This document shows, in pieces, positions 3,105 to 30,589 of a stretch of DNA of 45,786 nt. Numbering within the stretch: the stretch's first letter is position 1; every line of letters starts with the position of its first letter. This DNA comes from an uncultured Bacilli bacterium (GTDB lineage Bacteria; Bacillota_I; Bacilli_A; RF39; UBA660). The stretch spans positions 1 to 45,786 of the forward strand of contig CANRJW010000009.1 of the NCBI GenBank assembly GCA_947631035.1, in the 5' to 3' direction. The position numbers and the translations under genes were made by a program. The notes beneath the pieces were generated by a model. The model was not told the origin of the DNA, searched no databases, and worked only from the letters and a program-made list of their open reading frames with translations.

Positions 3105-3488
3105 TTATGCTTTTATCCAGGCTATCTGTGGATCGTCATCCGGAATAAATCTTTCTATTAGGTGAGAATATTCCGGTTTTTCCTCTCTTATAATCTTACG
3201 AAGATTTCTAATATCTTCATCTTGCAGACTTCCTACTTTATCCATAAATCTAGATCTTTCAATTTCAAGTACTTCTGAACCCCTGATGGTAGATGGTTTA
3301 TATAGCCCCGCTTCTGCCCAATGAATTATAGAATACTCAGCAGGAAATCTGGTTCTAGGTTCCCTAGAGGTTATCTTGAATGTACTTATCATTCGCCCAT
3401 TTACTTTAAGTACTAGCACAGGTCTAACTTTGGACTCTCTGCCGTTATCAAAAGGTGCATCTGCAAACCATATCTCCCATTTCTTCAT
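3105..3488 (-). CDS. MazF/PemK-like protein
   Basis: A 127-residue protein whose first 40 residues (MKKWEIWFADAPFDNG, then KVRPVLVLKVNG) match the start of the MazF/PemK/CcdB-fold family: a first strand with W-x-[IV]-W-[FL]-A, an acidic loop, and the K-x-R-P-V-L-V-L strand that lines the RNA-binding groove. Known members cut mRNA, and some are inactive or regulatory. The second half is charged and helical. The start overlaps the stop of a small acidic gene by four bases (ATGA), the usual layout of a toxin-antitoxin pair. In a phage late region it may be a host-takeover RNase, a plasmid-like stability pair or a domesticated protein; sequence alone does not decide. Confidence 0.65.
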   Translation of the reverse strand: MKKWEIWFADAPFDNGRESKVRPVLVLKVNGRMISTFKITSREPRTRFPAEYSIIHWAEAGLYKPSTIRGSEVLEIERSRFMDKVGSLQDEDIRNLRKIIREEKPEYSHLIERFIPDDDPQIAWIKA

Positions 3489-3652
3489 TTATGCTTCCTC
3501 TTCTGCCATTCAATCCAATATTCGTCATCTTCTGGATAGTCCCAATCCTCTTCAGGGAGGGCATGAATTATGGGGAGTTTTTTCAATGCCTGTTCAAACT
3601 CGTAATCTTCTTGTTCTTCCTCAGTTAATTGTTGTTTATTCTTACTATTCAT
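3485..3652 (-). CDS. Small acidic protein, possible antitoxin partner
   Basis: A 55-residue, strongly acidic protein (LTEEEQEDYEFEQALKKL, then EEDWDYPEDDEYW) ending in a basic tail (QKRKHK). I chose the ATG at 3652 because an AGAGGT site lies just before it; the longer frame to 3700 begins in hydrophobic, probably untranslated sequence. Its last bases overlap the start of the MazF/PemK-like gene, so the two are coupled. Size, charge and order fit an antitoxin, but there is no recognisable DNA-binding domain. It is the first gene after the capsid gene terminator. Confidence 0.5.
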   Translation of the reverse strand: MNSKNKQQLTEEEQEDYEFEQALKKLPIIHALPEEDWDYPEDDEYWIEWQKRKHK

Positions 3653-3721
3653 TTTATTTACCTCTATTATCATTATAATACATATTTGAAAATAAATCAA
3701 CTACTCTAATCATACATACAT

Positions 3722-3756
3722 AAAAAAAAACAGGTCCCAGTTTTCACCAGGACCTG
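3722..3756 (-). terminator. Rho-independent terminator after the capsid gene
   Basis: On the minus strand a long stem (CAGGTCC / GGACCTG with further inner pairs) is followed by nine T residues, about 45 nt after the capsid stop codon. It closes the head operon. Confidence 0.85.
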
Positions 3757-3801
3757 AAATTTTGTAAATTAAGCTTTTACGCTGCTATTTACCTATATAG
3801 T

Positions 3802-6800
3802 TTACGCTACAACTTCTCCGGCTACGAGAAGATCTTTGTTGAGGATTCTGAGGTCATATCATGTATCTTACAGATAATTCGTTTCCAATTATCTTCTCAA
3901 CATTGGTTTATTGAGATGAGACTATATCATATTCCTTAATTGTTTTATCCTTTTAAGGAATCCGCGCACTTCCATTTCACTTGAAATGTACTCTACTAAG
4001 TTCTCATATAAGTTTTTCTCTTATATTAACTTTTCGATAGTCGTTAAACCTTCTTATTTTTATATAAGCTTGGCTTTTGATTACCCATGTTTGGGCTTTC
4101 CAAAAATTCACGCGGTTTTCATTAAATATTACTACTTAATGCTTCAAAAATTTCAAAGTTGACCATCCCTGTGACCACTTATATTATAGATAAGGCGTTA
4201 ATTTATCTACCATTGATTATGGCTTTATATTTCTATAAAGGTTAGACTATATTATCATCTTGTTAAAGATGTGCAATCTTTCAGATTCACTTGAATCTTA
4301 CACAGAGCTACCTGTTAGTCGTTGAACCTTCATCCTATTTAGGATGCTTGGCTGCTGGTTGCCCAATTTCTTTTATTTTTTATAACCTTCATATTTATTA
4401 AATATTGTGGTAAAAAGAACTATAAGGAGTTTCCAGCAATTAATTGCATTATCATTTATTTATTTCTAAATAAAGCTACTATATTATTAATAGAGCCATC
4501 AGCGTGCCCTAAGAGTTGTGTAGGCACTATAGGCATATCGTTTATCTTCTAACTAATTCGTTGTATTAGTAACTTATATTTTCATATAAGACGAGACTAT
4601 ATTATTATCTTTTTATAGATACACAATCTTTCGATTTCACTTGAAATCTACACGGTGCTATCCGTTAGTCGTTGAACCTTCTCTTTCATATAAAGAGCTT
4701 GGCTGCTGATTGCCCAATCTTTTCACTTTTTAAAACCTTCATATCTATTAAAATATTGTGGTAGAAAAGCTCTAAAGGGTTTTCCAGCAATTAATTGTGT
4801 TATCACTTACCTATTTCTAGATAAGGCCTCAGGAGATATTTTTATTTATATCCCAAGGAGCATATCAAATATGTTGTATCTAAATCGTTTCCATTTAATT
4901 TCTTTATATTACTATAAAGTTCAGACTATATCATATTCTTTCATTGTTTTATCCTTTGAAAGAATCTCCGCACTTCGAAATCACTTGATTTCTACTTTAC
5001 TCACTTCCATTATATAAGTTTTTCTCTTATATATGTGTTTTCATTAGTCGTTGAGCCTTCTCTTACGAGCTTGGCTGCTGATTGTCCATTTCTGGATTTC
5101 CCAGCAATTCACGGAGTTATTTACTAATATATTACTATATTAGGCTGCGTATATGTTTTTCACAGCTGCACTTGCTGCAAAGTCACCGTCGTTGACACCA
5201 ACAACGAATTTACCTGCTGCAATATTAGGAGTTACATAAACCTTAAGCCCATTTAATGTCAAATATATTGTAGTTATGATTCGTTAAATCATATATGCTT
5301 ATTCTTTCAAATAAGTTTAGACTATATCTTCATCTCGTTTATTTGAGATGCAAACCATTTCAGATTCACTTGAATCTTACATTCCCTTTGGGGGAATTAG
5401 TCGTTGAACCTTTCTCTATTCGAGACTTGGCTGCTAGTTATCCAATTTTTACTGTTTTTTATAACCTTCACATTCACCTTTATTTCATGGTTATGTTGTG
5501 GTAAATAAAACTTAAGGACTTTCTAGCAATTAGATTTGTCAATTATTCTATATATCACTATATAGCCAGGCTACATGTAATAAAGCTTAGTATTTATATA
5601 TTGTTAAGTAATTTAAATGATTGTCTTCTGCAGTTTTTATCTTTTTTGGATCCACCTGAGTCCATATTCTGATCGCTTCTTGATACTGCTTACTGTTAGG
5701 ACATGTAGCAGCCTTTTCTTTTAGGTCTGCTAACAGTTCTCTGTCCTCTTCACTGTCTGGATCATATGGATGAGGTCCGTGATGCCACCAATTATTTACT
5801 TCAATAAATAGATCTTCTGTATCTACATAGAAATCACAATTGAAAGGGTACCTGGGGTCTCTATATTGATAGTGTACATGATCTTCACCATACCTATTTA
5901 TTAAATCTTCCTCTACCCTTCTCTCTATAAGAGTTTTTACATTCCCCGCAGTTCCGTTGCGAAGCATTGTGCTCCACCTACGTTCTGCCTGGCCATCACT
6001 CCAATGCTGCACACCTTTTTTACCTTTATTCCAGGGTGTGTGTCCTTTTTCCCACTTAGTGGGACTGTTCTTGCTAGAAGGCCTGGGTATGCCTGCCTGC
6101 GCTTTGCTGATCTTATCCCTTACACTTTGAGGGGTTGTGTGACCTAAGTGGGATTTCCCTATTCTATTTCCCCTTGCTCTCCTTTCATCATCTGACATAC
6201 AATCAAATTGAATCCTGGTGTTCTCTGCAATAGTATGTACGGGGATATCTAAGTAGTTAAGCACCTGTTTTAATAAATAAAGAGAAGGAATATGAAATTT
6301 TCTACAAGTCTCCCCAGGTAGATGATCTTTATAAAAACCTTCAAGTTCTTTCTTGTCTATCTGGTTAGCTAATTCTTTATACTGTGACATTTTATTAAAT
6401 TACTTAATTATATAATATTGCTTTGCTTTTATTAACCTGCAAAATAAGGACCATTTACACGACTTACTGAAGCTGCCTGCCAACCTTTAACGAATCCGAG
6501 GATAGGAAGGATGTCAGGTGCGATAAGCATGTAGTTGGGCATGTATCTCTGAGTCTTACTATAAATGATTGATGCTGCGAGTGCAGTAATCTCTGAGAAT
6601 CCTTCATAATGCTCTGCCTTGCTGCAATTATATTACATGTGGTTCATTGAATTTATATTCTCAAACCAAATTTCTTTATATTTCTATAAAGTTTAGACTA
6701 TATCATCATCTTATTTACTATTACCATAAATAAGAGCCACATACTTCGGATTTATTTAAATCCTACTCTACTTACTTCCAAGCTTAAATATTTCTTTTAA

Positions 6801-9800
6801 GCTGTGCTTTCGATAGTCGTTGAGCCTTCCCATTATTGGGCTTGGCTGCTGATTGTCCTATTATTAGGAGTTTCCAGCAATTCATGTGGTTATTTTATAT
6901 TATATTACTATAATAATGCGCAATTTTTTATTTTACGCCAATAGGAAGAGTACGAGAGAATGTGAGACGTGCATCTGCTGCTGCATTCTTGATTAAGAGA
7001 TCTGTAACTTCTGTATCGATTTCCACTTATGTTATTAATAAACCGTTTCCGTTTATTATCTATAGATTATTTATTTTCTATAGGTCAGACTATATCATAT
7101 TCTTAATTATCTGTTACCAATAATTAAGAACCCTAGCACTTCGAGTTTACTTAAACTCTACTCTACTCGCTTATCAATTCTCCTATCCTTTATCCTCTCG
7201 CGAAGGAGATATTTACGTATTTCTACGGATGAGAATATTTAGCTTTCGATAGTCGTTGCTCTACTTTCTCTAAATATAATAGAGAGAATTTAGATCATGA
7301 TTATCATATGAGTGATACTAACTCTCATAAGATTTTCCATGAGTTCACTAGGTTATTCGATAACACATTACTGTGTTAAGCTACAAGTTTTTGTTTATAG
7401 GCGAGTTGTTCTTGTATTCTAATAAGTTCGTTAATCTTATTATGCTCTTAGATAAGCAACTATATATTTCTATATAGGATAGACCATATCTTCATCTCAT
7501 TTTTGAGATGCACACTGCTTCCACTTTACTCAAAGTGTACTTTCTTACGAAATGGTCGTTGAACTTTTTCCTGTTCGGAACTTAGCTGCTGATTATTCAA
7601 TCCTCTAACTTTTATAACTTTTACATCTAAGCCTTTCATCTTTCTGCTTTAGTATAGAGGCTCTAAGAATGTTCCAGCAATTCAATGTGTTTATTGTGAT
7701 AAGCATTTCTGCTTAGGTAGGCCAAGTATTATCTCTATTGAATGCCTATACGTCAATAGAGATCTTCAAAACCTACTGCTTTCTCTGCAAGTTGATCACC
7801 GAGAGAAACGCCGTAATCAGTTTTCTTACTGCATTGACCACAGCTCGTTAGGCTGCAGTGTTCTTATTTGTCCATTTTCCACCATGTACCAATCTCTGTG
7901 TGGATACACAAGAGCTAACTTTACACCAGATGATAGGGCTTGCTTCAACTTCTTGACATCTCGTACAGTCCAGGTGTATGAATCTATACCATGTTTTTCT
8001 AGGTTCTCTAAGTATTCTATACAGACCGGATCTAGGGGATTATAAGGACGAGGCCCGTGAGAGTAATGTCCCTGATATTCTATAAATAGATCAAGAGATT
8101 TTATATAGAAGTCACTCATAAATGGATAGCGCTCTTCAGAGTAACCTCTAAGAATGTCTTCCTCGTCAAATGAAACAAGCAGTTGATGATAGAAGGATTC
8201 TTCTGCTTTAGACTTTGTACCGCCTTGTTTCTCTCTTACGGTATTAAGTCTTTTTTGATATGCAGCCTCCATATGCTCCGGCTTAGTTGCTCTAGACTTA
8301 TTTATAATTTGTCTCTCTTCCTCCGGACGACTGTACCAAGTCTGCCGCACCCGCTTCGCTCTGAGACGTAAGGTTTCCTCTGAACGGTTATTCATTCTAA
8401 TCTTATTCGCTTCAGAATCGGTCCTTCTAGGTATGTTATTTTTTATAAGATAGCCGCGAATGCATGCTGATGTGCATCCATACCTCTCTGCTATCTGGAC
8501 GGTACTTAGTTTCTCTTCCACATAAAGTTGAAGTAAGTCTTCTTTAGGAATATTTAGTTTCTTATTCTTCTTTCCCATGGTATGTGTGTTATTAAATGAA
8601 CATTGAACTTTACATTTTCATGTAAAAATAGACTATATTTTTATCTAATATATCTAATTAGATACTCGCTCTTTCAGGTTTACTTAAACCTTACTCCTGT
8701 TTAGGATAGTCGTTGAACCTTCTTCCCTTGAATGAGGGAAGCTTGGCTGCTGATTGCCCAATTCCTTATTTTTCAAACCATCGCACCTACAATTACTTGT
8801 TATGCTGTGGTATAAAGACTTAAGGGGTTTCCAGCAATTAAGCGAGTGTGTACTTATTTATTTCTAAATAAGGGGCCTAAACATATTAAGCCTGATAAGC
8901 TGCCATTTGTGAATAGTAGATCGCGATTCTCCGCGCGCGAGCGAGAAGGGGCATCGCTTCCATTTTGGCTGTAAGAAGAGGTAAATCGTTCTGAGGGATT
9001 ACAACGTTGTTCATTTATCTTATAAATCAGATTGATTTTTTTCTCTATATCACTATAGAGATGAGACTATATCATTATCTTTACTTGTTTTATCCTTGTA
9101 AAGACACCTTGCACTTCGGAATTTTTATTTTCCTACTCTACTCGCTTAATACTTTAGATATTTCTTCTGAAAGTATGCTTTCGATAGTCGTTGAACTTTC
9201 TCTATTTTTTTTTTTATAGAGCTTAGCTGCTGATTATCTTCTTTCTTTCCTCTAATAGAAAGAAGAGTTTCCAGCAATTCGCAAGGTTTTTCCATTACAT
9301 ATTACTATGTAAGGCTACTAACAATTAATAGGAGTATGCAACTTCAACAGCTGAATCCTTTGCAATAGAAAGATCGGTAAGATCGATTACACCGGTAGCG
9401 TAGTCAATCTTATCTGCTGCTGTAGCTAGCTTAACGCCGCCACCTGCTTCTGTAACAACAGTTTCGACCTTAGCTTCTGTACCTTCAAAACGGGGCTCAC
9501 TTAAACCGCTTACTTCTGTAACGGGCTGAACCATAACAGTTCTACGAGTTACTGAATCTGTTGCTCCTACTTCTGTAAGGCTACCCTTACCTGCCTGTGT
9601 ACCTGCAACGTCTACGTATGTCTTTGTAGTACCATCTTTGGTAACAGTGATTGTAAGAGTACCCTCGATGAAGGGTTTCCACTCCATTGTGAAGGAAGTG
9701 CTGTTCTGTGAAGTTGCTGTGAAGTTCTTAACTACTCTTGAAGAAGTGTAGTTGGGATCTACTTTACCGAGGTGGAAAGGATCATTGAAGACGTATCCTG

Positions 9801-11712
9801 CGTCTATGTTCCCTTTTGTCACACCCGCTGTAAAGCGGAGATAATTTACCAATGCTGTTACAAATAATTCATTTTGGAAATTATTCTCAATCTATTACTA
9901 GATTGTTCAGACTATATTATCAACTTTAATTGTTTTATCCTTTCAAAGTTGCCCAATCTTTCGAACCTATTTAGGCCCTACGGTACTCATTTATTCATAT
10001 AGGTTTTTCTCCTATATTATATTTTCCCTAGTCGTTGAACGTTCCCTTGCGGGCTTCGCTGCTGATTTTCCATTTTATTTGGAGGTTCCAGCAATTAATT
10101 GGGTTTCTTTTATCTACATCACTGTAGATAGGTTACGTTAATAATTCATAACCACTCATTGAGCTCATGGGATGTGTTACTTTTATCTTATTCTTTATAT
10201 CACTATAAAGACGAGACTATATCATAATCCATTATTGTTTTGTCCTTTAATGGATTCCAAGCGCTTCGAATATTTCTTATATTCTACTCTACTCACTTCC
10301 ATATTTAGGTATTTCTCCTAAACTGTGTTTTCGATAGTCGTTAAACCTTCCCTCAGTAATTGAAGGCTTGGCTTTTGATTGTCTTAGTAAGCTCTAAGAT
10401 TTTTCAAAAATTCACTTGGTATTTTTTTATTATAAATTACTTTATAACTGTCCTAACTATTTAAGACGATCTCAGGAGCGATGAGGTTAGGTCATTTTCT
10501 TATAAATATTTCGTTCTTAAATATTTACTATACATTACTGCACAGTTGAGACTATATCATAATCCTTAATTCTTTTACCGTTTTAAGGATTCGCATCTTT
10601 TCGATTTCACTTGAAATCTACTCTACTCGTTTATTCTCATGAATGTTTCTTTCATGATATACTTTCGATAGTCGTTCCACATTCCTAAGAATTTTTTCTT
10701 AGTTAGCTCGGCGATTACCCATTTAATGGGCTTCCCCCGAATTAGATGCGTTATTGTTTTGTGTAACTAAATATTACTATTTAGTGCCTCTACCTATTTA
10801 GTTAAAGGCGACATTGACTAAGTTAAGAGAGAACTTAGTAAATAGACCCATATCACTTCTTTGGGTTGCACCCTCATTGTGTGACTGAAGTGCAAGTGCC
10901 TCATTCATAAACACCTGCCTTACACTTGAACCGTTTCCGTTCAAACTCTCTACGTTACCGTAAAGATGAGACTATATCATAATCTTAAATTCTATCACCG
11001 TTTTTAAGATTCATTGCTTTTTGGGTTTCACTTGAATCCCTACTGTACTCGTTTATTCATGCAAGTATTTCTCTTGCACTATACTTTCCATAGTCGTTGG
11101 ACCTTCCCTTTATAGGGCTTGGCTGCTGGTTTTCCCTGTTTGGAAGTTTCAGCAATTAGCAATGTTTTTTAACTTTTAATTTTCCAAATCGAAGCTTTAT
11201 AATTTGTTTATTAAAAGATGCTTGACCTTACATGTTACCATATAAGGGCGCTTTAGTTGAATGAGTTTTTAACTTAACGCTGAGTATTCTCCAATTGTGT
11301 TATAAATAAATCGCTTTGTTTATTTTCAACTTATCTCTAAGCTGTTCAGACTATATCATCAACTCCACTTGTTTTATCCTTATAGAGTTGCAGTGCGCTT
11401 CAGACCTGCTTAGGTCTTACTCTACTCCCTTCTTTGCAATAGTTTTTCTCTGTTGCTATGGTTTCGATAGTCGTTGCTCCTGCACAATGCAGGATCATGA
11501 TTGTCTTTAGAGTTGCGTTAGTCTCTAAAGAGTTTCCATGAATTCACACTGTTGTTTGAGCTGAGTATTGCTACTCAGTGTCTCTCAAATTAAAGACATT
11601 TTGCGATGAGGATTTTCTTTGACTCACTAAGGCGTTCACCGTTGTGTGCCTTAGAATATAATTTCTCGGCAAGGTTTAATCTCTTGCCATAAGCTTCGAG
11701 TAAATTAGCCAT
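3802..11712 (-). CDS. Major capsid protein, sixteen exons split by fifteen group I introns
   Basis: Head shell protein, gp23-like by gene order (terminase, portal, protease/scaffold, capsid) and by motifs such as TQRSDMG, HPMSSMSGY and LLGHADGS. Exons in order: 11593-11712, 11277-11313, 10805-10922, 10464-10492, 10147-10179, 9328-9860, 8889-9011, 7771-7824, 7397-7435, 6935-7023, 6435-6624, 5162-5259, 4855-4865, 4490-4538, 4155-4175, 3802-3859. Joined, they give 1602 nt, a multiple of three with no internal stop, so about 533 residues against 521 for T4 gp23. Starts after AAGGA, ATG at 11712, and ends GEVVA then TAA. Sites were set by a U.G pair between exon end and guide sequence, and a G at the intron end. 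Uncertain points: exon 2 may begin at 11301 (twelve nt shorter), and exon 5/6 can slide by one base without changing the protein. Near the N-terminus RLSES and FMNEA resemble prohead protease sites. Confidence 0.9.
3860..4154 (-). ncRNA. Group I intron 15 (295 nt)
   Basis: Lies between the 21-nt exon 15 and the last exon. P1 pairs exon CUUU with guide GAAG. L2 is a GUAA tetraloop. P near 4098-4109, R near 4038-4050, S at 3920-3930. P4 uses UUUUG with CAAAA instead of the usual UGCUG with CAGCA, a paired change shared with intron 4. Its P9 hairpin lacks a GNRA loop. No endonuclease gene. Confidence 0.9.
4176..4489 (-). ncRNA. Group I intron 14 (314 nt)
   Basis: P1 pairs exon CUAU with guide GUAG, and the intron starts UAAUAA. 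L2 and L9 are both GAAA tetraloops. P near 4431-4443, R near 4317-4330, S from 4245. P4 is the common UGCUG/CAGCA type. It separates the exon encoding LLGHADGS from the 21-nt exon encoding SQGWST. Confidence 0.9.
4539..4854 (-). ncRNA. Group I intron 13 (316 nt)
   Basis: Directly follows the 11-nt exon 13. P1 pairs exon CCUU with guide GAGG. L2 and L9 are GAAA tetraloops. P near 4782-4793, R near 4666-4680, S from 4595, common P4 type. The 3' splice site follows G in AAACG and the next exon begins ATATGCC. Confidence 0.88.
4866..5161 (-). ncRNA. Group I intron 12 (296 nt)
   Basis: Lies upstream of the 11-nt exon 13. P1 pairs exon GCUGU with guide GCAGC, and the intron begins GAAAAAC rather than UAA. 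L2 and L9 are GUAA tetraloops. P near 5098-5109, R near 5045-5058, S from 4924, common P4 type. Confidence 0.88.
5260..6434 (-). ncRNA. Group I intron 11 with homing endonuclease gene in the P1 loop (1175 nt)
   Basis: Exon CAGGU pairs with guide GCCUG at about 5572, but 5' splice site and guide are separated by the whole endonuclease gene (5587-6390), so the gene sits in the P1 loop. The core follows: L2 GUGA hairpin near 5553-5570, P near 5520-5532, R near 5399-5412, S at 5320, L9 GAAA. Without the gene the core is about the size of the other introns. Exons on both sides read in frame (YFAG then TLNGLK). Confidence 0.9.
5587..6390 (-). CDS. Intron-encoded homing endonuclease, NUMOD3-like plus PD-(D/E)xK/Vsr-like domain
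   Basis: A 267-residue protein. Residues about 83-125 hold repeated NUMOD3-like DNA-binding motifs (TPQSVRDKISKAQAG, then GHTPWNKGKKG). The C-terminal half has PFNCDFYVDTEDLFIEVN followed by WWHHGPHPYDP and later WTQVDPKK; this D...E...HG arrangement is shared with the endonuclease at 7826-8578 and suggests a PD-(D/E)xK or Vsr/EDxHD-type nuclease. Such enzymes cut intronless alleles so that repair copies the intron. The gene lies wholly inside intron 11, between 5' splice site and guide sequence, and may be translated from unspliced RNA. No clear strong ribosome site precedes the ATG. Family assignment is from motifs; a search of Vsr/EDxHD profiles would decide it. Confidence 0.75.
   Translation of the reverse strand: MSQYKELANQIDKKELEGFYKDHLPGETCRKFHIPSLYLLKQVLNYLDIPVHTIAENTRIQFDCMSDDERRARGNRIGKSHLGHTTPQSVRDKISKAQAGIPRPSSKNSPTKWEKGHTPWNKGKKGVQHWSDGQAERRWSTMLRNGTAGNVKTLIERRVEEDLINRYGEDHVHYQYRDPRYPFNCDFYVDTEDLFIEVNNWWHHGPHPYDPDSEEDRELLADLKEKAATCPNSKQYQEAIRIWTQVDPKKIKTAEDNHLNYLTIYKY
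6625..6934 (-). ncRNA. Group I intron 10 (310 nt)
   Basis: P1 pairs exon GCGU with guide GCGC, and the intron starts AAAAUAAA. L2 is GUAA and L9 is GAAA. P near 6870-6882, R near 6815-6828, S from 6696, common P4 type. Splicing joins LPIG to VSKAEHYEG in frame. Confidence 0.9.
7024..7396 (-). ncRNA. Group I intron 9 (373 nt)
   Basis: P1 pairs exon CUAU with guide GUAG. L2 is GUAA; the P9 hairpin has a larger loop. P near 7333-7345, R near 7248-7262, S at 7088. P4 is the alternative UCAUG/CAUGA type and P6 changes together (UCU with AGA), both shared in kind with intron 1. Confidence 0.88.
7436..7770 (-). ncRNA. Group I intron 8 (335 nt)
   Basis: P1 pairs exon GUAGGU with guide GCCUAC. A 9-bp extra hairpin (AUCUCUAUU / AAUAGAGAU) lies inside the P1 loop. 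L2 and L9 are GAAA. P near 7671-7683, R near 7554-7568, S at 7482 in a variant form (gaccatat on the plus strand). P6 uses GCU/AGU rather than GCC/GGU, a compensatory change. Confidence 0.88.
7825..8888 (-). ncRNA. Group I intron 7 with homing endonuclease gene near its 3' end (1064 nt)
   Basis: P1 pairs exon GGCU with guide GGCC, and the intron starts UAAUAUG. L2 and L9 are GAAA. P near 8828-8839, R near 8707-8720, S at 8631-8640. The endonuclease gene (7826-8578) begins after P9, and its TAA is followed by one G, which I take as the last intron base; exon 8 then reads KTDYGV in frame. Confidence 0.88.
7826..8578 (-). CDS. Intron-encoded homing endonuclease, HTH plus PD-(D/E)xK/Vsr-like domain
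   Basis: A 250-residue protein. Residues about 8-50 form a resolvase-like helix-turn-helix (LYVEEKLSTVQIAERYGC, then IRGYLIKNNIPRR). The C-terminal half has PFMSDFYIKSLDLFIEYQG followed by HYSHGPRPYNP and WTVRDVKK, aligning closely with the nuclease half of the protein at 5587-6390, whereas the DNA-binding N-termini differ. The ATG lies in CCATGG at 8578, shortly after the intron P9 hairpin. The stop codon ends one base before the 3' splice site, so the gene reaches the very end of intron 7. Its likely role is cutting intronless capsid alleles to spread the intron. The nuclease fold is inferred from the D...E...HG motif set. Confidence 0.75.
   Translation of the reverse strand: MGKKNKKLNIPKEDLLQLYVEEKLSTVQIAERYGCTSACIRGYLIKNNIPRRTDSEANKIRMNNRSEETLRLRAKRVRQTWYSRPEEERQIINKSRATKPEHMEAAYQKRLNTVREKQGGTKSKAEESFYHQLLVSFDEEDILRGYSEERYPFMSDFYIKSLDLFIEYQGHYSHGPRPYNPLDPVCIEYLENLEKHGIDSYTWTVRDVKKLKQALSSGVKLALVYPHRDWYMVENGQIRTLQPNELWSMQ
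9012..9327 (-). ncRNA. Group I intron 6 (316 nt)
   Basis: Follows the longest exon. P1 pairs exon CUAU with guide GUAG, and the intron starts UAAUUG. L2 is GUAA and L9 is GUGA. P near 9268-9279, R near 9186-9198, S at 9065. P6 uses GCU with AGU, compensating for the GCC/GGU pairs of most copies. Joins VAYSY to NNVVIPQ in frame. Confidence 0.9.
9861..10146 (-). ncRNA. Group I intron 5 (286 nt)
   Basis: P1 pairs exon GGUUAU with guide GUAACC. L2 is GUGA and L9 is GUAA. P near 10085-10096, R near 10029-10042, S at 9910. Because the same base (G) follows the exon end and precedes the next exon, the junction can be placed one base either way with the same protein, SGYVTALVNY. Confidence 0.88.
10180..10463 (-). 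ncRNA. Group I intron 4 (284 nt)
   Basis: P1 pairs exon GUCU with guide GGAC, and the intron starts UAAAUAG. L2 is GUAA and L9 is GUGA. P near 10392-10405, R near 10337-10350, S at 10215. P4 is the UUUUG/CAAAA type shared with intron 15. It separates the 29-nt and 33-nt exons and joins PEIVL to THPMSS. Confidence 0.9.
10493..10804 (-). ncRNA. Group I intron 3 (312 nt)
   Basis: P1 pairs exon GCCUU with guide GAGGC, and the intron starts UAACUAAAU. L2 and L9 are GUAA. P near 10732-10744, R near 10668-10680, S at 10550. P4 is a fourth type, UCGG with CCGA, found only here, and R carries GGAACGA instead of UCAACGA. Joins NVA to LPNLIAPE in frame. Confidence 0.88.
10923..11276 (-). ncRNA. Group I intron 2 (354 nt)
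   Basis: P1 pairs exon GCGU with guide GCGC. L2 and L9 are GUAA closed by an extra G-C pair. P near 11147-11158, R near 11091-11104, S at 10970, common P4 type. The 3' site follows CAAGUG and the next exon encodes RQVFMNEA. Confidence 0.85.
11314..11592 (-). ncRNA. Group I intron 1 (279 nt)
   Basis: P1 pairs exon UGUCUU with guide GAGACA, and the intron starts UAAUUUG. L2 is GCAA and L9 is GAGA, both GNRA. P near 11533-11544, R near 11468-11480, S at 11349. P4 is UCAUG/CAUGA with P6 UCC/GGA. The 3' end is the least certain of the set: a G-ending site gives exon 2 from 11313, while local similarity to other introns would allow 11301; both keep the frame. Confidence 0.82.
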
Positions 11713-11744
11713 TGTATTGAAAATTCCTTTATCGTTTAATTTAT

Positions 11745-13238
11745 TTATTTGCCGTATTTGTTTGCCAGATTAACAAGATTTTCATCTATGTCATCGTCGA
11801 ACCTACTCTTTGGCTTGATAGGTTCAACAGACTCTTTAATCTTTACCTTTACGGACTGGTTGCTACCTACATCAAAAGGAAGTGAGTTTACCCTAAGCTG
11901 ATAATTTTGCATTTCTTCGCAAATTCTATCAATATCGTTGAAGGAATAACCTTCGTGGAGTTTTGATTTTATAGCTGATGGCGCAATGCCGATCATCTTA
12001 GCCTTTGCTTCAATGTACTTGTTACTAGCTGTAAGAGCTATTCTCTTGTAGTGCTCTACAAGATCACTTGCCTTTTTTAATTTGGCGTTGCAGTCTTCTT
12101 TGATAATTTTAGAATCTTGGCGTGCATCCTCTAAGCTTTCCTGCAGTCTGGAAATTTCCTTCCTACTTTCTACTCTTTCTGATCTTAACTGCTCATTTAA
12201 TTGTCTCACTCTACCTGTTTTAGATTGGAGTGATTCATTAAGTGATTGATGTTGATCTACTTGAGCAGTGTTCTGCTTTTCGAGGAGGGCGAGCTTCATC
12301 TCTTGACGTTTGATGGTCTTTTCTGATTGAGATAATTGCTCAGTTAGGCGTCCATTTTCGGCTACTACATCTTGATTAGAAGTTTCTAATTCTGAAACTC
12401 TAGTCTTGCAAGTCTGGAGCTCATCTCTTGATTTCGTTTCTTTCGCATTGCAAACTGATAACTTCTCTTGAAGTGATTTCACCTGATCTTGAAGTTGTTT
12501 GTTCCGCTTAATGGATTCCTGGAGTTGCTTTATCACGTCTGCCCCGATATCTTCGGCTGCATTGGGTGCTTCTTTATTTTTATTATCAGACTTATAATCA
12601 ATATTAAGTCTGTCTAATGTCTCTGTCATAATTTTCTTGTTTTCAGGGGTTGCTTTGTTGAGTGCTTCTGTGAGTGCTTTCTTTAATTTCAAAGCACTGG
12701 GACTGAGGGATTCTGTCACGTAACTAGGTCTTGCACTTTCAACAGCAGGAATAAGAACGGCATCCCAGCATTCGCAAGAATAGGTCTCAGGATCTACTCT
12801 TTCACCGCTGCCGCTCCAATCCTCAACTACGTCGCCCTCACCACGAGAACTAACCCCGACCTGACAGCCATAATCACATAAAGTTTTTAGAATTCTGCCA
12901 TTGGGTGTATCCAGAATATCAAACACACCCTTTAATGTACCGTCAGGATATTTTTTAGGTTCTTCCGCAAGGCAAATAGCTATTTTTTCCATATCTATCT
13001 CGGTACGATCTGCGGGATGTCCTAACTCTCCAAAGACAGCGCGATTCTTTAACTTCTCCTGCATAATGGGATCTTTAAAAACGTTATCCCAAAGTTGCTC
13101 GGAGTATAAGCGACCATTACGGGTAGGATTCTTAAAGTCGGCTATGGTGCCTACTAGCCTACCTAGTATGCCCCTTCTCTTCTGCTCCTCCACCGTTAAT
13201 TTTTTATATTCACATGTACCTGAATTTACCGTTTTCAT
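11745..13238 (-). CDS. Prohead protease fused to scaffold core protein
   Basis: A 497-residue protein. The N-terminal 175 residues match T4 gp21-type prohead proteases: a start strand (LVGTIADFKNPTRNGRLY), FGELGHP with the likely catalytic His74, and VGVSSRGEG with the likely catalytic Ser130 or Ser131. The rest is a long coiled coil (about residues 230-430) rich in Gln, Glu and Lys, as expected for a gp22-like inner scaffold. In T4 these are separate genes, so here protease and scaffold form one chain. L-x-E or T-E-S segments (YVTESLSP, KALTEALNK, SLNESLQ) between and within domains are candidate self-cleavage sites. It lies just upstream of the capsid gene, 32 nt away. A sigma-A-like promoter and a conserved phage motif lie ahead of it. 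Confidence 0.88.
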   Translation of the reverse strand: MKTVNSGTCEYKKLTVEEQKRRGILGRLVGTIADFKNPTRNGRLYSEQLWDNVFKDPIMQEKLKNRAVFGELGHPADRTEIDMEKIAICLAEEPKKYPDGTLKGVFDILDTPNGRILKTLCDYGCQVGVSSRGEGDVVEDWSGSGERVDPETYSCECWDAVLIPAVESARPSYVTESLSPSALKLKKALTEALNKATPENKKIMTETLDRLNIDYKSDNKNKEAPNAAEDIGADVIKQLQESIKRNKQLQDQVKSLQEKLSVCNAKETKSRDELQTCKTRVSELETSNQDVVAENGRLTEQLSQSEKTIKRQEMKLALLEKQNTAQVDQHQSLNESLQSKTGRVRQLNEQLRSERVESRKEISRLQESLEDARQDSKIIKEDCNAKLKKASDLVEHYKRIALTASNKYIEAKAKMIGIAPSAIKSKLHEGYSFNDIDRICEEMQNYQLRVNSLPFDVGSNQSVKVKIKESVEPIKPKSRFDDDIDENLVNLANKYGK

Positions 13239-14184: not shown

Positions 14185-16167
14185 TTAAAAATTGCTATTA
14201 TCCGTAAAATCTGCGCCTAATTGCTCCGGTGTAGGAAGTACTTCTTCTCCTTCCCCGGCTTCCGAGGTCTCTTCTTCTCCACCCAGGCCTGCTGCAGCTG
14301 CTAATGAGGAGCCACCCTCTTCTTCGCCTGTATCTAATCCACCTACATCTATGGAACTATCTAAGTCCATATCTTCAGATTCTTCTACCTCTTCGCTCTC
14401 AGTAGGTGTTTCTTCAGGTGCAGGATTTTCTAGTTTATCTATTTCATCCTGAATGAGTTGAATCACCTCAACATCTGTAATATATGACTTGAGGAGAGAT
14501 TTCAATATCTTAAGTTTAGTAGCTGGATCCTCAATTAAGTCCATCATACTCATGGTATCACTTGTTAATTGAACTTTAGCTGCAATATTTTCTCTTCTAT
14601 CAATCTCTTCCTGAGTAGTAGGTGCAAGCATTTTTAATTTGAATCTATTAATATAGTTGGGTAATCCTCTATCAATTAAAATAACATTAATTGCATCTGT
14701 TAGCATTTGAATAATAGTATTTTGAATACGTTTAATCATCTTTGCATAACGAGATGAAATAATTGATAATGATTGTCCACCATTAAACCCTGCGCCATCT
14801 TCAGTAAAACCAAAATATTGTTTTGGAACTTTTAATCCCCCGAATAATTTATCTCTAAAGTAATCAAGGTCTGCAAGCCCTTTAACATCTACATCCCCAC
14901 CCACGGTTTGGATATTTAAAGCACCCTTACCATCTCTTGTAGGTATATATATGTTATTCTCGATGGGCCCTGGATTGGTATATTCACTCATGGATTTACC
15001 AGATACGATTGATTCCGATTGCTCAAATAATTTTTTTATGCCCTGTAGGTGAGGTGCTACCTGCTCTTTGGGCATATCCCCAATCTCTACACCTATGGCT
15101 CTAACAACTGAGGATTTAGTAACTCTATTCAACAGTACAGAATTTTCAAGCAATGTCATCTCTCTCCAAATCTTAAATAAATCATAGAAAAGAGATTTAC
15201 CGCGTTTTACTGTATATGTAGAGCTGTTAGATTCTTTTTGACTATCAGCTCCAACCTCACCTGTAGTAATTGTTACCTCTTCGGGTATTCTGCTACTATC
15301 ATCTTCAAGACAACCGTGTACAAACTCTGTAGCTGCATATACGTTTATATCACCTTTGTTAAATTTATAATTTATTGCCTGTAAATATCCTGCACTTGCA
15401 CCCATAGTACCCATTGGATTATAAGAGGTACTTGCACTTGTAAGCTGGGTATTTGTTTTTATATATGCATATGATTTACCAAACTTGGTGAGCTCAAATA
15501 TGATTGCAGGGTTAGGTTGCATTTCAAGATAGTGCACGAAATGATCATTCTTGCTATACGCCTTAATCCTTACTTCCTCTGCTAATGATGTAGAAGGGGT
15601 ATCGAGATCTGGACTATCTACACTATATGATTCAAGAATTTTTGTCTTTTTCTTTATATCTTTAAGTTGTCTCTTATTAAACAACTTGTCATCATATTCA
15701 GACTCTCTATAAATTCTTAAATATACATCTCCGTACTTACATAAGGAATGTACCCAATTATAAACATTTTTATCTACCTTCATGGAGTCAAGTAAATACG
15801 TAATATAACTGGAAATATCGGCATCAGCAGAATCAACCCAAACTATTCTACCATCCTCATTTGTTTCAGTTGCATCTTCTGAGTATGTTTCCAGTACGGC
15901 AGCCATTGTTACATCTTGACACATGGTATCAAGTAGGGAGTATATTTCATCTCTACTTCTTGCTGTCTGGTCAAATGAATCAAATGCGCTGATGTCCAAT
16001 TTATTAGACGTTGCTGCGTCTATAAAGGTATTGAAAAAGTCATCATCCGTATCTACACCTATTTGGCGAGGAGGAACAGGTGATGATTGTATTTTTTGCC
16101 CATATAAATTATCATCTTGTTGGAATGGGCTGCTTTCTTGCTCTGTACTATTAATATTTTCTGGCAT
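14185..16167 (-). CDS. Portal protein
   Basis: A 660-residue protein matching T4 gp20-type portals, which form the ring through which DNA enters the head. Evidence includes the N-terminal helical part (SRDEIYSLLDTMCQDVTMA), the wing and stem region with LFKIWREMTLLENS, and the typical KVPKQYFGFTEDGAGFNGG segment followed by long helices (SSRYAKMIKRIQNTIIQ) and the clip/crown region (PTTQEEIDRRENIAAK). The final 70 residues are very acidic with glycine-rich patches, an added tail absent from T4 gp20. It follows the terminase by 13 nt, the T4-like order. The tail might contact packaging or scaffold proteins; that is inference. Confidence 0.92.
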   Translation of the reverse strand: MPENINSTEQESSPFQQDDNLYGQKIQSSPVPPRQIGVDTDDDFFNTFIDAATSNKLDISAFDSFDQTARSRDEIYSLLDTMCQDVTMAAVLETYSEDATETNEDGRIVWVDSADADISSYITYLLDSMKVDKNVYNWVHSLCKYGDVYLRIYRESEYDDKLFNKRQLKDIKKKTKILESYSVDSPDLDTPSTSLAEEVRIKAYSKNDHFVHYLEMQPNPAIIFELTKFGKSYAYIKTNTQLTSASTSYNPMGTMGASAGYLQAINYKFNKGDINVYAATEFVHGCLEDDSSRIPEEVTITTGEVGADSQKESNSSTYTVKRGKSLFYDLFKIWREMTLLENSVLLNRVTKSSVVRAIGVEIGDMPKEQVAPHLQGIKKLFEQSESIVSGKSMSEYTNPGPIENNIYIPTRDGKGALNIQTVGGDVDVKGLADLDYFRDKLFGGLKVPKQYFGFTEDGAGFNGGQSLSIISSRYAKMIKRIQNTIIQMLTDAINVILIDRGLPNYINRFKLKMLAPTTQEEIDRRENIAAKVQLTSDTMSMMDLIEDPATKLKILKSLLKSYITDVEVIQLIQDEIDKLENPAPEETPTESEEVEESEDMDLDSSIDVGGLDTGEEEGGSSLAAAAGLGGEEETSEAGEGEEVLPTPEQLGADFTDNSNF

Positions 16168-16180: not shown

Positions 16181-17734
16181 TCACCAAATTAACATTCCAT
16201 CTGATACTGAAGGACCGGCAAAGGGGGTTGAAGGACCATTACCGAAATCAACAAACCCTTCTTCACTTGCTTTTTGTCTTTCTTTTTTAATAGAGTTTGG
16301 AGTAAACATTTCTTGTAATGCTTGTTCAAAATCTATATTTATTTGTTTTTTAGTTTCGGCTTCATTATTAGCTGTGCTTACTGATATCAAATCGTCCAGT
16401 GTTTCTCCATAATCAAAGGAGAAATCTCCGATGCTCTGTGACGCATTATATAATGAACCACATATTGCATCCGCTGCATCTTTCGACCCCTGAGTTCCGC
16501 CCTCGGGGTGGTTTATATGACCATCAGGCTCCTTCTCAAGGCCAACAATTTCGTCGGTCAGTAAATCGCATTTTGCATAGAGCTCTAATCTTTTTTCATA
16601 AATGGCAGACTTAAAAAATATGTAAGGCAAACATAGTTTTTGTTTAGAATCAGGCACGTTTTCTAGTCTATCAACAGATAATATCTTTGTATTAAATCCA
16701 TCTGCTGTTAGCTGTTGCTTTATTTGAGCAGACTGGTAGGTATCCATTGAGACGCCTTTTATATTAAAGCCCTGTGATTTTAACCACTTAATAAATATTC
16801 TAGCTTTCTCAAAGGAGATTTCGTAACCCTTGGGCGCCTTAATTGAAACAGAAAAGGCTACTCTATATTTTGCACCTTTTCCCGTATCATCATTGGCACT
16901 TTTAGACATTATCCAGGTACCGCCTATACCGGTTTTGTCCCCGGATTTTGACATATCCAAATGGATATACAGAGGTTTGCTTCTACAATTCTGGGGAACT
17001 TTTTTCAGGTCGAAAAATTGAGAATATTGTAAATTATCTCCTGTACCTACTTCTATAATATCTTTTGTAAAGGGATTCTCATAAGTAGTGGTTTTTATTT
17101 CATTTAATCTAACACCTGAAATATATTTTAATGCGCTTGTGCTAGAGATACCTGCAATATCTGTTAAAGCTAGTTCTACATTATCCATGAAAGCTTCATA
17201 GTAACCTTCAGGTACATGCAACATTTGGTAACCCTTAGCTCTATAATTATTTACAAGCTCTTCAGGTGCATTTATAGGTAATACCTCCGAGGCTAAAAAT
17301 TTATTGCCTACAGCTACCCAGAATTTATTAGGACTATCTTTATCATTTCTTATTACCCATTGTGGCTCATCAACAATTAGGGTAGTTTTACTATTATTCT
17401 TCTTTTTCGTGCTAATATAAGTATCGAGAAAGGATTGATCACTACTTTTAGATGATGCAATCATCTGTAATGTAGGTAATTTAGTGCCTTTCATAAATCT
17501 TGATTGCATACGAGCATCAACTTGAGAAATAAGTAGTTTTTGCTTTCTTTTTATTTTTTCTACATCTGTAGTCATCGCAGCGAAATTTACTTCATCTGTA
17601 AAATTGCAGTTGTGAGAAATGATGTAACCTGAATTTGTTTTAATTAGGAAATTATTGTAAGGATTAGCTTCAACTACGTCATAAAACTGCTTCGGAGCAT
17701 CAAGGGAGATCTTTTTTATACTCTTTATTTTCAT
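16181..17734 (-). CDS. terL: Large terminase, C-terminal part preceded by split-intein C-half
   Basis: A 517-residue chain. Residues 1-42 are an intein C-terminal half: FYDVVEANPYNNFLIK matches block F and GYIISHN followed by Cys43 matches block G with a +1 cysteine. From Cys43 the terminase resumes with CNFTDEVNF, giving the Walker B acidic pair, then the nuclease domain, with candidate metal-binding acids in IHLDMSKSGDKTG, SMDTYQSA and GSKDAADAI. Protein trans-splicing with the upstream product would give a terminase of about 683 residues. The start codon lies one base after the upstream stop (TAAGATG) with GGAG about 12 nt ahead, so it has its own translation start. Without splicing, ATPase Walker A and Walker B motifs would be on different chains. 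Confidence 0.87.
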   Translation of the reverse strand: MKIKSIKKISLDAPKQFYDVVEANPYNNFLIKTNSGYIISHNCNFTDEVNFAAMTTDVEKIKRKQKLLISQVDARMQSRFMKGTKLPTLQMIASSKSSDQSFLDTYISTKKKNNSKTTLIVDEPQWVIRNDKDSPNKFWVAVGNKFLASEVLPINAPEELVNNYRAKGYQMLHVPEGYYEAFMDNVELALTDIAGISSTSALKYISGVRLNEIKTTTYENPFTKDIIEVGTGDNLQYSQFFDLKKVPQNCRSKPLYIHLDMSKSGDKTGIGGTWIMSKSANDDTGKGAKYRVAFSVSIKAPKGYEISFEKARIFIKWLKSQGFNIKGVSMDTYQSAQIKQQLTADGFNTKILSVDRLENVPDSKQKLCLPYIFFKSAIYEKRLELYAKCDLLTDEIVGLEKEPDGHINHPEGGTQGSKDAADAICGSLYNASQSIGDFSFDYGETLDDLISVSTANNEAETKKQINIDFEQALQEMFTPNSIKKERQKASEEGFVDFGNGPSTPFAGPSVSDGMLIW

Positions 17735-17735
17735 C

Positions 17736-19478
17736 TTACTTCTTCTCCCACCTCAGGTTATCTATAACCTCTTTATAACGCCTAGAAAACAGATCTCCAT
17801 ACCCCCCTGACTCCAGGGTACGTACAGCGGAGGTAGTGATACTCACTCCAATAGAATTAAGATAGGTTACCAAATCTTTTCTACACTCAAACACCCTGTC
17901 TTTGAAAAAATATCGAGTAACTGCCTTCCCGTTATTTCCTCCCGCAATCTTATACCCCTTGCCATACATATTATTTCCTGAACCAGAGCACTGCGCACTC
18001 TTTTGCTTACGAAAAGTCTCAAGATCTCTTATTACGTGCTTCTTATGTACTGTATGCTTCGGATGCTTTCCTGTACTCAAATTTCCTAGCTGCCAGCCCG
18101 CAGGCACTTCCATACCTACATCTATGTACCTACAGGTGGTTCCGTTATTTATGGCCTTCTTTCCAAAAGCAGGCCCTCTTTCTTTTTCAAAACGCTGTCG
18201 CGCGCTTTTAGACATACGCATGCGCGTCTCCTCAGAGTAGGTTCGACCCTTAAAAAACTCTGACAAGCACCTCTTCAGGTTAGCGTATTCTTCTTCAGGC
18301 AACAGGTACTTAGACTTATTTTGCAGCCCCATCCTAAAGAAGGCAAACTTGAGCGCATCGCAATCAGGATACTTCTCTAAGAGGAGTTTATGAGCAATAT
18401 AATGCTCTTCGGGATATAATCGAATGATATTGGGGTGATGCTGCTTAGATCTACCTTCGCCCCCTAGGCATTTAGGCAGAATATGATGACCCTCAAAGTA
18501 ATTGTTTTCTATTCCCCACTGCCCCCTCTTTTGAATAATATTGGCTATAAATTGATCATACTCATCCAAACAAGGGTCTGCAAGTTCGTCTCCGTCCGTT
18601 AAGTACCTGGCTTCTTTATATGTACCGTCCTTTAACATCAGCTTATGATTAGGTGTACACTTAATTACAGTGCCGTCTTCCAGCTCAATTTGGTACTCCT
18701 CATCCGTGAGTAGGGTCGGCTGAACAGTGCACTGATCACCTACTACCTGATTGCCGTTTTCATCTATAGAAAATACCTTAATGGACTTATTTACTAGATC
18801 TACCAGCTTTCTATCACCCTCAGTGGTCTTAATTATGGTATCACCATCAAGACAGAAAACTGCTCGACCAATAACTGCATTATTGTTTGAACCTACAACT
18901 AATTCTATTCTTTTATTCGGAGACCAGGTTAGTTCACTTCTACCCGTTACAGTACCGTGGCTCATAAACCAAGGAGAAGCTTGAACTAACTGCTGCAATT
19001 TATCCCATGCAACACCTTTTGCTGCATCTATAGTAACGTTGATAAGTGAAAACGTAATTTTGTCAATAGGCTGTAATCCATAATGGAGGTAAGGATCCTT
19101 TAAGCACAACATTCTATGTAATAGATAAAGCATACATAGAACAGCAATAAAGCTCTTACCTATACCAATAGAGCCTGTTAATACCAAAGTATTATATTTT
19201 GTATCAAGATTATTGGGAAATATTTTTTTCAATGTTTCAACCCAGTAAGGGAAAACTGTAAATCTTCCATCCGGGTCTATTAAACCATTTCCTAGATATT
19301 GCTTATCATATAAGAACGTCTCAATATCTACAGGAATTTCTTCATAATCAGCATACTTGAGGGTTTCAAGTATTTTATTTTCTCCTTTAGATATTTCTGA
19401 CAATGCCTTCAAGGCTATCTCCCTTTCTTGTGGTGTGAGAGTAGCCAATAGCTGTTCAGTTGTTTGTTGGTTAGCCAT
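17736..19478 (-). CDS. terL: Large terminase N-part, split-intein N-half and fused HNH endonuclease
   Basis: A 580-residue chain in three parts. Residues 1-208 are the terminase ATPase front, with Walker A TGSIGIGKS at 101-109. Residues 209-302 are an intein N-half: CLDGDTII is block A with the catalytic cysteine, and CTPNHKLML is block B with its T-x-x-H. Residues 303-580 are a homing endonuclease-like part: an HNH motif at about 330-364 (FEGHHILPKCLGG, then HPNIIRLYPEEHYIAHK) and a NUMOD3-like repeat (TYSEETRMRMSKSAR). The chain ends in a TAA one base before the gene for the intein C-half. In known fractured genes the endonuclease is usually a separate gene between halves; here it is fused to the N-half. 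The insertion point AVF/CNFTDE is inside the Walker B motif. Confidence 0.87.
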   Translation of the reverse strand: MANQQTTEQLLATLTPQEREIALKALSEISKGENKILETLKYADYEEIPVDIETFLYDKQYLGNGLIDPDGRFTVFPYWVETLKKIFPNNLDTKYNTLVLTGSIGIGKSFIAVLCMLYLLHRMLCLKDPYLHYGLQPIDKITFSLINVTIDAAKGVAWDKLQQLVQASPWFMSHGTVTGRSELTWSPNKRIELVVGSNNNAVIGRAVFCLDGDTIIKTTEGDRKLVDLVNKSIKVFSIDENGNQVVGDQCTVQPTLLTDEEYQIELEDGTVIKCTPNHKLMLKDGTYKEARYLTDGDELADPCLDEYDQFIANIIQKRGQWGIENNYFEGHHILPKCLGGEGRSKQHHPNIIRLYPEEHYIAHKLLLEKYPDCDALKFAFFRMGLQNKSKYLLPEEEYANLKRCLSEFFKGRTYSEETRMRMSKSARQRFEKERGPAFGKKAINNGTTCRYIDVGMEVPAGWQLGNLSTGKHPKHTVHKKHVIRDLETFRKQKSAQCSGSGNNMYGKGYKIAGGNNGKAVTRYFFKDRVFECRKDLVTYLNSIGVSITTSAVRTLESGGYGDLFSRRYKEVIDNLRWEKK

Positions 19479-29956: not shown

Positions 29957-29972
29957 CAGCTTGTTGACTCCT

Positions 29973-30368: not shown

Positions 30369-30391
30369 TTTTTGACTCCATTTTAAATAGA

Positions 30392-30589
30392 TTAGTAAAT
30401 TTGAACAACATCTTGTATTGTACCGGATTTTATATCACGGTGTAGCAAAGAATTACCATTTAGGAGGATAGCGCGGACGTTTCCGGTGGAGAGCTGACTG
30501 CTTATTGCTATGACTGGGCACCGTGTATTACCTTCTCTGTAATAGCCGGTAGCAGAAATATAATTAGTTTCAGTATCTATAACATTCAC
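30392..30589 (-). CDS. Hypothetical 65-residue fibre-operon protein
   Basis: A 65-residue protein, mostly strands (CPVIAISSQLSTGNVRAIL), with no recognised family. Its start overlaps the end of the nucleotidyltransferase gene by four bases, so they are coupled. The sequence AIGYYREG-like turns and its position suggest a small structural or tip protein. Base composition is intermediate between the GC-richer block upstream and the AT-rich fibre genes downstream. Confidence 0.5.
   Translation of the reverse strand: MNVIDTETNYISATGYYREGNTRCPVIAISSQLSTGNVRAILLNGNSLLHRDIKSGTIQDVVQIY

Follow-up and report, generated by a model that had tools for sequence, protein, structure and literature searches.

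The window analysed here, the complete 45,786-nucleotide contig CANRJW010000009.1 (C9) of an uncultured Bacilli bacterium whose bin totals 1.43 Mb in 82 contigs, carries on its minus strand pieces of a terminase gene, a portal gene (phrog_213), a prohead protease gene and then a split major capsid gene of a phage, that is, the gp23-type gene order of terminase, portal, prohead protease and capsid. The capsid gene runs from a start codon at 11712 to a stop codon at 3802 and is modelled as 16 exons and 15 group I introns. On the strength of its sequence features, we consider it highly probable that this is a T4 gp23-type capsid gene whose fifteen group I introns would excise themselves, joining sixteen exons into a 1530-base message for 509 residues. 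A sequence-only reading had proposed a phage major capsid gene with fifteen group I introns at this place and on this strand, and its limits, its identity and its intron number all hold.

Exon map and joined capsid protein

An Infernal search with the Rfam group I model RF00028 (curated cut-off, 50 bits) gave 15 matches on the minus strand within 3802–11712, of which 14 score 55 to 105.7 bits, while the fifteenth, at 7406–7071 in intron 9, reaches 39.8 bits (E 1.6e-7) and stays under the cut-off. Model positions 1–253 are matched by all 15 introns. No further match over the cut-off was found across the window; sub-cut-off matches were sought only in 3300–12300. To place the exons, we aligned the locus, in spliced mode, to a profile of related phages' unsplit capsid proteins (32 were used out of 38 collected, six being excluded as partial or with doubtful starts), with donors required to end in T, acceptors to follow a G and pairing in the P1 helix rewarded; the boundaries of introns 6, 9 and 12 were placed by wider search windows and P1 pairing. 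The exons of the resulting map (Table 1) sum to 1530 nt and join into one continuous frame of 509 residues, so that the single stop-free frame claimed from the sequence stands, but not the length of 1602 nt given for it. Introns make up 6381 of the 7911 nt of the locus (80.7%), in keeping with an earlier estimate of four fifths.

The joined protein matches Pfam Gp23 (PF07068) with an E-value of 4e-23 and 82.9 bits (cut-off, 24.4) and the PHROG major head protein with 7.7e-21. Among the matches listed from a search of 5.8 billion proteins, the best full-length ones are the uninterrupted P0121 and P0122, with 69% identity over the whole length, and the partial P0123 shows 83% identity over 77% of the joined protein. 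When ten uninterrupted homologues were aligned, each row reaching a joint spanned it ungapped, at all 15 joints and with 8 to 10 rows each; homologous capsid proteins do contain the joined sequences, and the motifs that had been read over the joins (VNVA continuing into LPNLIAPE, and VKGWQAAS) are correct. Many joints sit within highly conserved protein segments, and this, together with exons of 11, 12, 15 and 21 nt that could not usefully be translated alone, speaks against separate translation of the exon pieces and assembly of the capsid protein from fragments, an explanation to which we give almost no credence although exon 6 falls within an open frame of 175 aa that begins at a TTG.

One boundary departs from the pattern. 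A 3′ terminal G is found at 14 of the 15 introns, by a search restricted to G, while for intron 8 homology admits only an A at the end, a single candidate that was added by hand. All ten homologue rows read [VI]GQLAYEIDTEV at exon 9, a motif that fixes this exon as CAACTCGCCTAT, so that intron 8 would end in A. By the pattern of the other introns, the end would fall at a G two bases earlier, which with a T-ended donor in phase yields a TAA stop. Ending intron 8 in the usual G would bring in a stop codon, shift the frame or lengthen the protein by nine residues, and the frame-keeping ends (T before, G after) were rejected since none of the aligned homologues contains the nine added residues. 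Either the splice end of intron 8 is unusual or the assembly is in error by two bases here.

Catalytic cores and splice sites

To the 15 window cores we added 6 of the 17 cores of the related locus L096 (described below), giving an alignment of 21 rows. RNAalifold returned helices that we read as P3, P4, P5, P6, P7.x, P8 and P9 (the names are our own assignment), with compensated changes in 35 of 41 pairs. Over 46 pairs including P7, 95.4% of the cells are paired, compared with 72.8% in shuffled alignments, 37 of the 46 pairs contain double changes, and 225 double-changed cells stand against 59.9 in the shuffles; none of 500 shuffles reached the observed value on any of five measures, and control structures slid along the alignment paired 35–45% of the cells. 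P7 is paired in all 21 rows, with one compensated change, in intron 8.

A P1 helix of the U.G type with 4 to 6 pairs can be drawn at all 15 5′ splice sites, as had been claimed from the sequence for every copy; only T-ended donors were admitted, however, and pairing was rewarded, and without the reward 11 of the 15 donor calls were identical. Each guide sequence pairs better with its own exon than when permuted onto the exons of the other introns (of 100,000 permutations, none was as good in the window, none in L096 and 265 for the six introns of L097), with the caveat that the donors had been chosen partly by P1 pairing. Since covariation and P1 pairing both exceed their controls, an origin of these features by chance fails as an explanation. 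In the genes of the window and of L096, each 5′ site is followed within 34 nt by an in-frame stop (32 of 32, a count that has no chance control).

As seen in the sequence, each intron contains a catalytic core (P3–P9, P7 being paired) and a guide of its own, and the pairing of this guide with the last 4–6 bases of the upstream exon, closed by a U.G pair, defines the 5′ site. In established group I chemistry, guanosine attacks at this U.G pair and the freed exon then attacks the downstream boundary, and the same two steps would operate here fifteen times over. Unspliced copies would presumably cease to be translated at the early in-frame stops.

Several observations weigh against this interpretation. 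The boundary search in part presupposed P1 pairing and the 3′ G, intron 9 scores under the Rfam cut-off, and the sole model of intron 8 that fits homology does without a terminal G. Moreover, none of the 120 proteins listed is identical to the joined protein, so that this list contains no direct sign of a spliced product of the window gene, and the window may hold part of a phage, with a second capsid gene possibly lying elsewhere.

Table 1. Exons, introns and adjoining features of the capsid locus, in window coordinates
Feature	Position	Strand	Evidence or remark
Exon 1 (120 nt, start codon at 11712)	11593..11712	-	Spliced alignment; L096 uninterrupted across 3′ joint
Intron 1 (301 nt)	11292..11592	-	RF00028 69.0 bits; P1 6 pairs
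Exon 2, micro-exon (15 nt, ENTQR)	11277..11291	-	Spliced alignment; in L096 runs on from exon 1
Intron 2 (365 nt), site common to L096	10912..11276	-	RF00028 74.8 bits; 93.7% identity to L096 intron 1
Exon 3 (107 nt)	10805..10911	-	Spliced alignment
Intron 3 (312 nt), site common to L096	10493..10804	-	RF00028 60.8 bits; 95.2% identity to L096 intron 4
Exon 4 (29 nt)	10464..10492	-	Spliced alignment
Intron 4 (284 nt), site common to L096	10180..10463	-	RF00028 68.6 bits; 95.4% identity to L096 intron 5
Exon 5 (32 nt)	10148..10179	-	Spliced alignment
Intron 5 (298 nt), site common to L096 and L097	9850..10147	-	RF00028 69.2 bits; 96.6% identity to L096 intron 6
Exon 6 (522 nt, variable domain inside)	9328..9849	-	Spliced alignment
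Intron 6 (316 nt), site common to L096	9012..9327	-	RF00028 94.1 bits; 95.2% identity to L096 intron 8
Exon 7 (123 nt)	8889..9011	-	Spliced alignment
Intron 7 (1064 nt), endonuclease-like gene 3′ of P9	7825..8888	-	RF00028 105.7 bits
Putative homing endonuclease, 250 aa, in intron 7	7826..8578	-	PHROG HNH endonuclease families, best 1.2e-8; no Pfam match
Exon 8 (54 nt)	7771..7824	-	Spliced alignment; L096 uninterrupted here
Intron 8 (362 nt), 3′ end modelled at A	7409..7770	-	RF00028 67.3 bits; P7 compensated change; boundary from homology
Exon 9, micro-exon (12 nt, QLAY)	7397..7408	-	Spliced alignment, homologue alignment
Intron 9 (373 nt), site common to L097	7024..7396	-	RF00028 39.8 bits, sub-cut-off, E 1.6e-7
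Exon 10 (89 nt)	6935..7023	-	Spliced alignment
Intron 10 (310 nt)	6625..6934	-	RF00028 83.5 bits
Exon 11 (190 nt)	6435..6624	-	Spliced alignment
Intron 11 (1175 nt), endonuclease-like gene upstream of guide sequence	5260..6434	-	RF00028 71.2 bits; guide 863 nt past 5′ site
Putative homing endonuclease, 267 aa, in intron 11	5587..6390	-	Weak PHROG HNH match, 8e-4; no Pfam match
Exon 12 (98 nt)	5162..5259	-	Spliced alignment
Intron 12 (296 nt), site common to L096	4866..5161	-	RF00028 69.2 bits; 96.6% identity to L096 intron 13
Exon 13, micro-exon (11 nt, likewise 11 nt in L096)	4855..4865	-	Spliced alignment
Intron 13 (316 nt), site common to L096	4539..4854	-	RF00028 60.5 bits; 96.9% identity to L096 intron 14 over 159 nt
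Exon 14 (49 nt)	4490..4538	-	Spliced alignment
Intron 14 (314 nt), closest kin intron 13	4176..4489	-	RF00028 69.4 bits; 79.8% identity to intron 13 over 257 nt
Exon 15 (21 nt)	4155..4175	-	Spliced alignment
Intron 15 (295 nt), site common to L096	3860..4154	-	RF00028 55.0 bits; 97.3% identity to L096 intron 16
Exon 16 (58 nt, including stop codon)	3802..3859	-	Spliced alignment
Prohead protease gene	11745..13238	-	Immediately upstream of capsid gene; phrog_207 head maturation protease, 2.7e-28
Terminator-like hairpin 3′ of capsid gene	3731..3756	-	11-pair stem, then T run

Relatives and proposed growth of the intron array

Related phages were found through an alignment of portal proteins, which yielded 84 loci (80 kept out of 139 viral matches, and 4 genome matches, some of the contigs being near-duplicates); scans of viral contigs with single proteins (exon 6, protease, portal) returned no relatives, a scan with a capsid alignment listed at least 80 loci, and among 60 genomes related to the host bin the only match was the window's own. 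The capsid gene is unsplit in 46 of the 84 loci, so that intronless alleles exist in related phages, and it is split in 10, cut by the locus end in 7 and without a match in 21, which are mostly short pieces or end soon past the portal. Exon models place 17 introns in L096, six in L097, five in L032, two each in L021 and L043, and one in L037; for L032, the fourth joint has two solutions and two sites cannot be placed on the window numbering. The seven genes, the window's included, contain 48 introns at 33 sites, 12 of which are used by more than one phage. Outside this set of exon models stand L044/L098, with six RF00028 matches, L062, with a split frame but no RF00028 match, L020 and L015. 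The intron counts in the relatives are lower bounds, because the RF00028 search in E-value mode left out five matches from another search (one each in L096, L032 and L098 and two in L097; two of the five are weak, at 20–24 bits). L097 (from yak rumen, by its title) and L044/L098, all with about six capsid introns, carry stop codons where the window has Q, and by their sequences seem to read TAG as glutamine. In L009, the last 20 residues of an intact GXN1 capsid gene recur downstream of it, at 14314–14797 (95%), after a weak group I match of 34.7 bits (record position 131034–131448), an arrangement that resembles an intron placed past the stop and carrying a duplicate of the last exon.

The locus L096 lies on CANQPY010000001.1, the same contig as L092, from isolate Lapin-010 (rabbit, by name), and the portal of this contig is 73% identical to that of the window. 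Its joined length of 1530 nt equals that of the window gene. RF00028 lists 14 of its 17 introns, 13 of them in the E-value search, the other three (11, 14 and 15) having been placed from core motifs, exon gaps or both, and intron 14 is confirmed by its window partner. Intron 15 (12299–12555), with 257 nt and a P1 of 6 pairs, is neither matched by RF00028 nor related by BLAST to the remaining introns and may represent a different type or subtype; intron 12 (8724–10654) contains a 486-aa open frame with a DUF7487 domain. The two genes share 8 intron sites, while 7 are found in the window only and 9 in L096 only, making 24 sites in one gene. The exons of L096 are uninterrupted at the 7 window-only sites, as with the unbroken MANLLEAYGKRLNLAEKLYSKAHNGERLSESKKILIAKCLENTQR at the site of window intron 1, and the converse applies to the window's exons at the 9 L096-only sites, so that for every unshared site one of the two phages supplies a natural intronless allele.

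Between the joined exons of the two phages, 448 of 504 residues agree, and dN (nonsynonymous divergence) is 0.093 and dS (synonymous divergence) 0.683 over 504 codons (dN/dS ~0.14), indicating purifying selection on the exons. Seven of the eight common introns are 93.7–97.3% identical; the eighth is set apart by the insertion of a GIY-YIG gene and is 96.9% identical over 159 nt. Introns 94–97% alike at an exon dS of 0.68 point to recent exchange or to strong constraint. Synonymous change amounts to 0.20 within 9 nt of the common introns, compared with 0.38–0.61 farther out, which may reflect guide-sequence constraint or co-conversion, and we conclude nothing from it.

This comparison also bears on two explanations under which the window would not hold a working split gene. 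The introns might have piled up in a disused capsid copy, with another gene or a helper phage supplying the shell, which would suit a locus that is ~81% intron, the irregular 3′ end of intron 8 and a phage genome that is probably incomplete in the window. However, sixteen exons that join in frame, the low dN/dS, the covarying cores and a second phage in the same state are hard to reconcile with a dead gene, and an unsplit capsid protein used as query against G000 and G001 matched the split loci only; we regard it as very unlikely. Alternatively, fragments of several phages might have been joined in assembly, as the contig does come from a bin of many contigs, but CANQPY010000001.1, a separate record, shares 8 of the intron sites and adds different introns of its own, the other phages show graded numbers of 1, 2, 5 and 6 introns, and the joined exons give one continuous frame, which makes an artefact extremely improbable.

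Turning to the endonuclease genes, we found that the two putative homing endonucleases of the window align with three from introns of L032, the C-terminal part being best conserved. For the 267-aa protein of intron 11, a low-confidence structure model had a Vsr endonuclease as its best Foldseek match (E 0.13), and a PDB search with one endonuclease returned designed proteins only. Open frames of more than 200 aa occur in 2 of 15 window introns, 2 of 17 in L096, 2 of 6 in L097, 2 of 5 in L032 (3 if a GTG start is allowed), 1 of 2 in L021, both in L043 and not in the single intron of L037. As a whole, the window array does not show the encoded endonuclease by which homing introns are recognised, as only 2 of its 15 introns have such a frame, labelled as endonucleases from PHROG matches. 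At sites 1402 and 1014, a window intron without an open frame faces an intron of L096 or L097 with one: L096 intron 14, the partner of window intron 13, holds the GIY-YIG gene, and the L097 intron at the site of window intron 9 has a 249-aa open frame. Homing introns are known to pass through a cycle of homing, endonuclease loss and retention, and the missing open frames at these two sites fit it.

Cores could be extracted from 43 of the 48 introns, all but five, and a tree of these resolves two subfamilies, with 12 of 40 inner branches well supported and 21 of 40 open. The introns at all eight sites common to the window and L096 are well-supported sisters. At least two structural subfamilies are present among the window introns, and both are in L032 too. 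The 24 sites of the window and L096 favour conserved residues (1 of 5000 random sets is as high over the whole gene, and 56 of 5000 outside the variable domain). Taken together, we think it somewhat probable that the array grew by repeated insertion of introns of two or more subfamilies at conserved capsid sites, with recent exchange between phages and some copying nearby, most copies having lost or never had an endonuclease gene. Two observations run counter to this history. Outside the L096 pairs, the introns at the recurrent sites 203, 222, 282 and 1014 show no supported grouping by site, and introns 1 and 2 of L043 (100/100) as well as introns 2 and 3 of L032 (99/88) pair within their own genes.

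These pairs, and that of window introns 13 and 14 (support 99/94; 79.8% identity), would also be expected if the introns were mostly copies of one or two that spread within the gene, for instance by reverse splicing nearby, in the window phage or in the ancestor of the window and L096 phages; spread in that ancestor would yield the observed sister pairs as well. A recent spread in the window alone, however, is excluded for 8 introns by their L096 sisters, the window's subfamilies recur in L032, and no two window introns are more than ~80% alike. We therefore hold predominantly local copying to be rather unlikely, though well short of negligible, because the open deep forks of the tree leave room for copying in the common ancestor. 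A count of label changes gives 15 for the window, to which we attach little weight because it is largely dictated by the L096 sisters alone. It seems that both processes, exchange and local copying, have been at work.

It is tempting to speculate that the array serves as a shield, an idea motivated by an intron endonuclease of phage PhiPA3 that reportedly interferes with a rival phage (PMC11620839). Introns without endonucleases would then fill the conserved sites that the homing endonucleases of rivals cut, so that the full gene could not be cleaved in a mixed infection, at the possible cost of fifteen splicing reactions gating the shell protein. The shield predicts window introns without an open frame where the intron of a relative has one, as is seen at 1014 and 1402; we nevertheless consider both the shield and its cost doubtful.

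Flanking genes and comparison with known systems

Around the capsid gene, terminator-like sites number 9, compared with 5.0 expected from shuffles, and a MazF-like protein is encoded shortly 3′ of it, at 3105–3488 (-) (phrog_1936, 1.4e-13). LIS04 likewise has the order terminase, portal, prohead protease and capsid, with other genes interspersed. The window's terminase gene (16181–19478, -) is split into two open frames, the first ending in an intein-like N half (Pfam Intein_splicing, 28.2 bits, under the cut-off of 35.8) and a homing-endonuclease-like stretch (phrog_655), and the second starting with what by eye resembles an intein C half, ending in HN, followed by the C part of the terminase. 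This layout looks like that of a fractured split intein; in LIS04, intein and endonuclease genes precede the terminase. Farther along, at 27557–34620 (-), several proteins contain long collagen-like GXY repeats.

The window gene would probably make one structural protein dependent on a chain of ribozyme reactions, and these ribozymes would have to work with exons of 11–15 bases, in which the same few bases are one intron's end and pair with the next one's guide. Given a success p per step, the complete message would be obtained with p^15, that is, 0.86 for p = 0.99 and 0.46 for p = 0.95 (arithmetic, not data). The graded relatives, with 0, 1, 2, 5, 6, 15 and 17 introns, make intron gain, endonuclease loss and spread testable, and since an open-frame listing shows such a gene as fragments only, public data may conceal further phage genes saturated with introns.

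Our survey of the literature, which covered few subscription papers and the available portions of the sources cited here, found no report of a phage gene with more introns. The sequence-only reading had known of no phage gene near fifteen, and this agrees with the maxima in these sources, while L096, with 17 modelled, goes beyond the window itself. In the Bastillevirinae, group I introns likewise interrupt protein genes, as they reportedly do in Twort; some Bastillevirinae genes are interrupted two or three times, three per gene being the most reported (PMC11878797), compared with 15 in the window. Closer in kind is a crAss-like phage of the Zeta group, whose major capsid gene, also from a gut phage, lies in five fragments with intron-type domains in three of the four gaps, in an order with up to 14 introns per whole genome and some members that recode stop codons (PMC7886860); the window and L096 differ in having 15 and 17 introns in one gene, exons of 11–15 nt, another lineage and a gp23-type capsid. 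Like the window, the Jug phages of the gut have numerous group I introns in essential genes, a mean of 18.5 per genome of 360–402 kb, and metatranscriptome reads back the splicing of 37 of 76 predicted introns (PMC12363816), but theirs are spread genome-wide, whereas the window packs 15 into one gene of 7.9 kb, with none besides over the cut-off in its 45.8 kb. In SP-15 (NC_031245.1), a related gp23-type capsid gene is annotated as two joined pieces with an endonuclease between them; unlike the window gene, it is interrupted by one intron, which RF00028 matches weakly at 38 bits. Outside the phages, the morphogenesis genes of mirusviruses (PMC12768974) are intron-crowded virion genes of a tailed-phage-related virus, some of whose introns contain homing endonucleases, yet these introns are spliceosomal and the hosts eukaryotes. 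The mitochondrial cox1 of Agaricus bisporus, with 18 group I introns and one group II intron in 29.9 kb (PMC2987802), is likewise a single protein gene that gathers mobile group I introns, with often eroded endonuclease genes and a patchy distribution, but the window gene is viral, more compact and furnished with micro-exons. As far as these sources go, a phage gene holds three or four introns at most, and the window gene with 15, like that of L096 with 17 modelled, comes near the mitochondrial 18; it is an extreme case of the phage genes split by group I introns.

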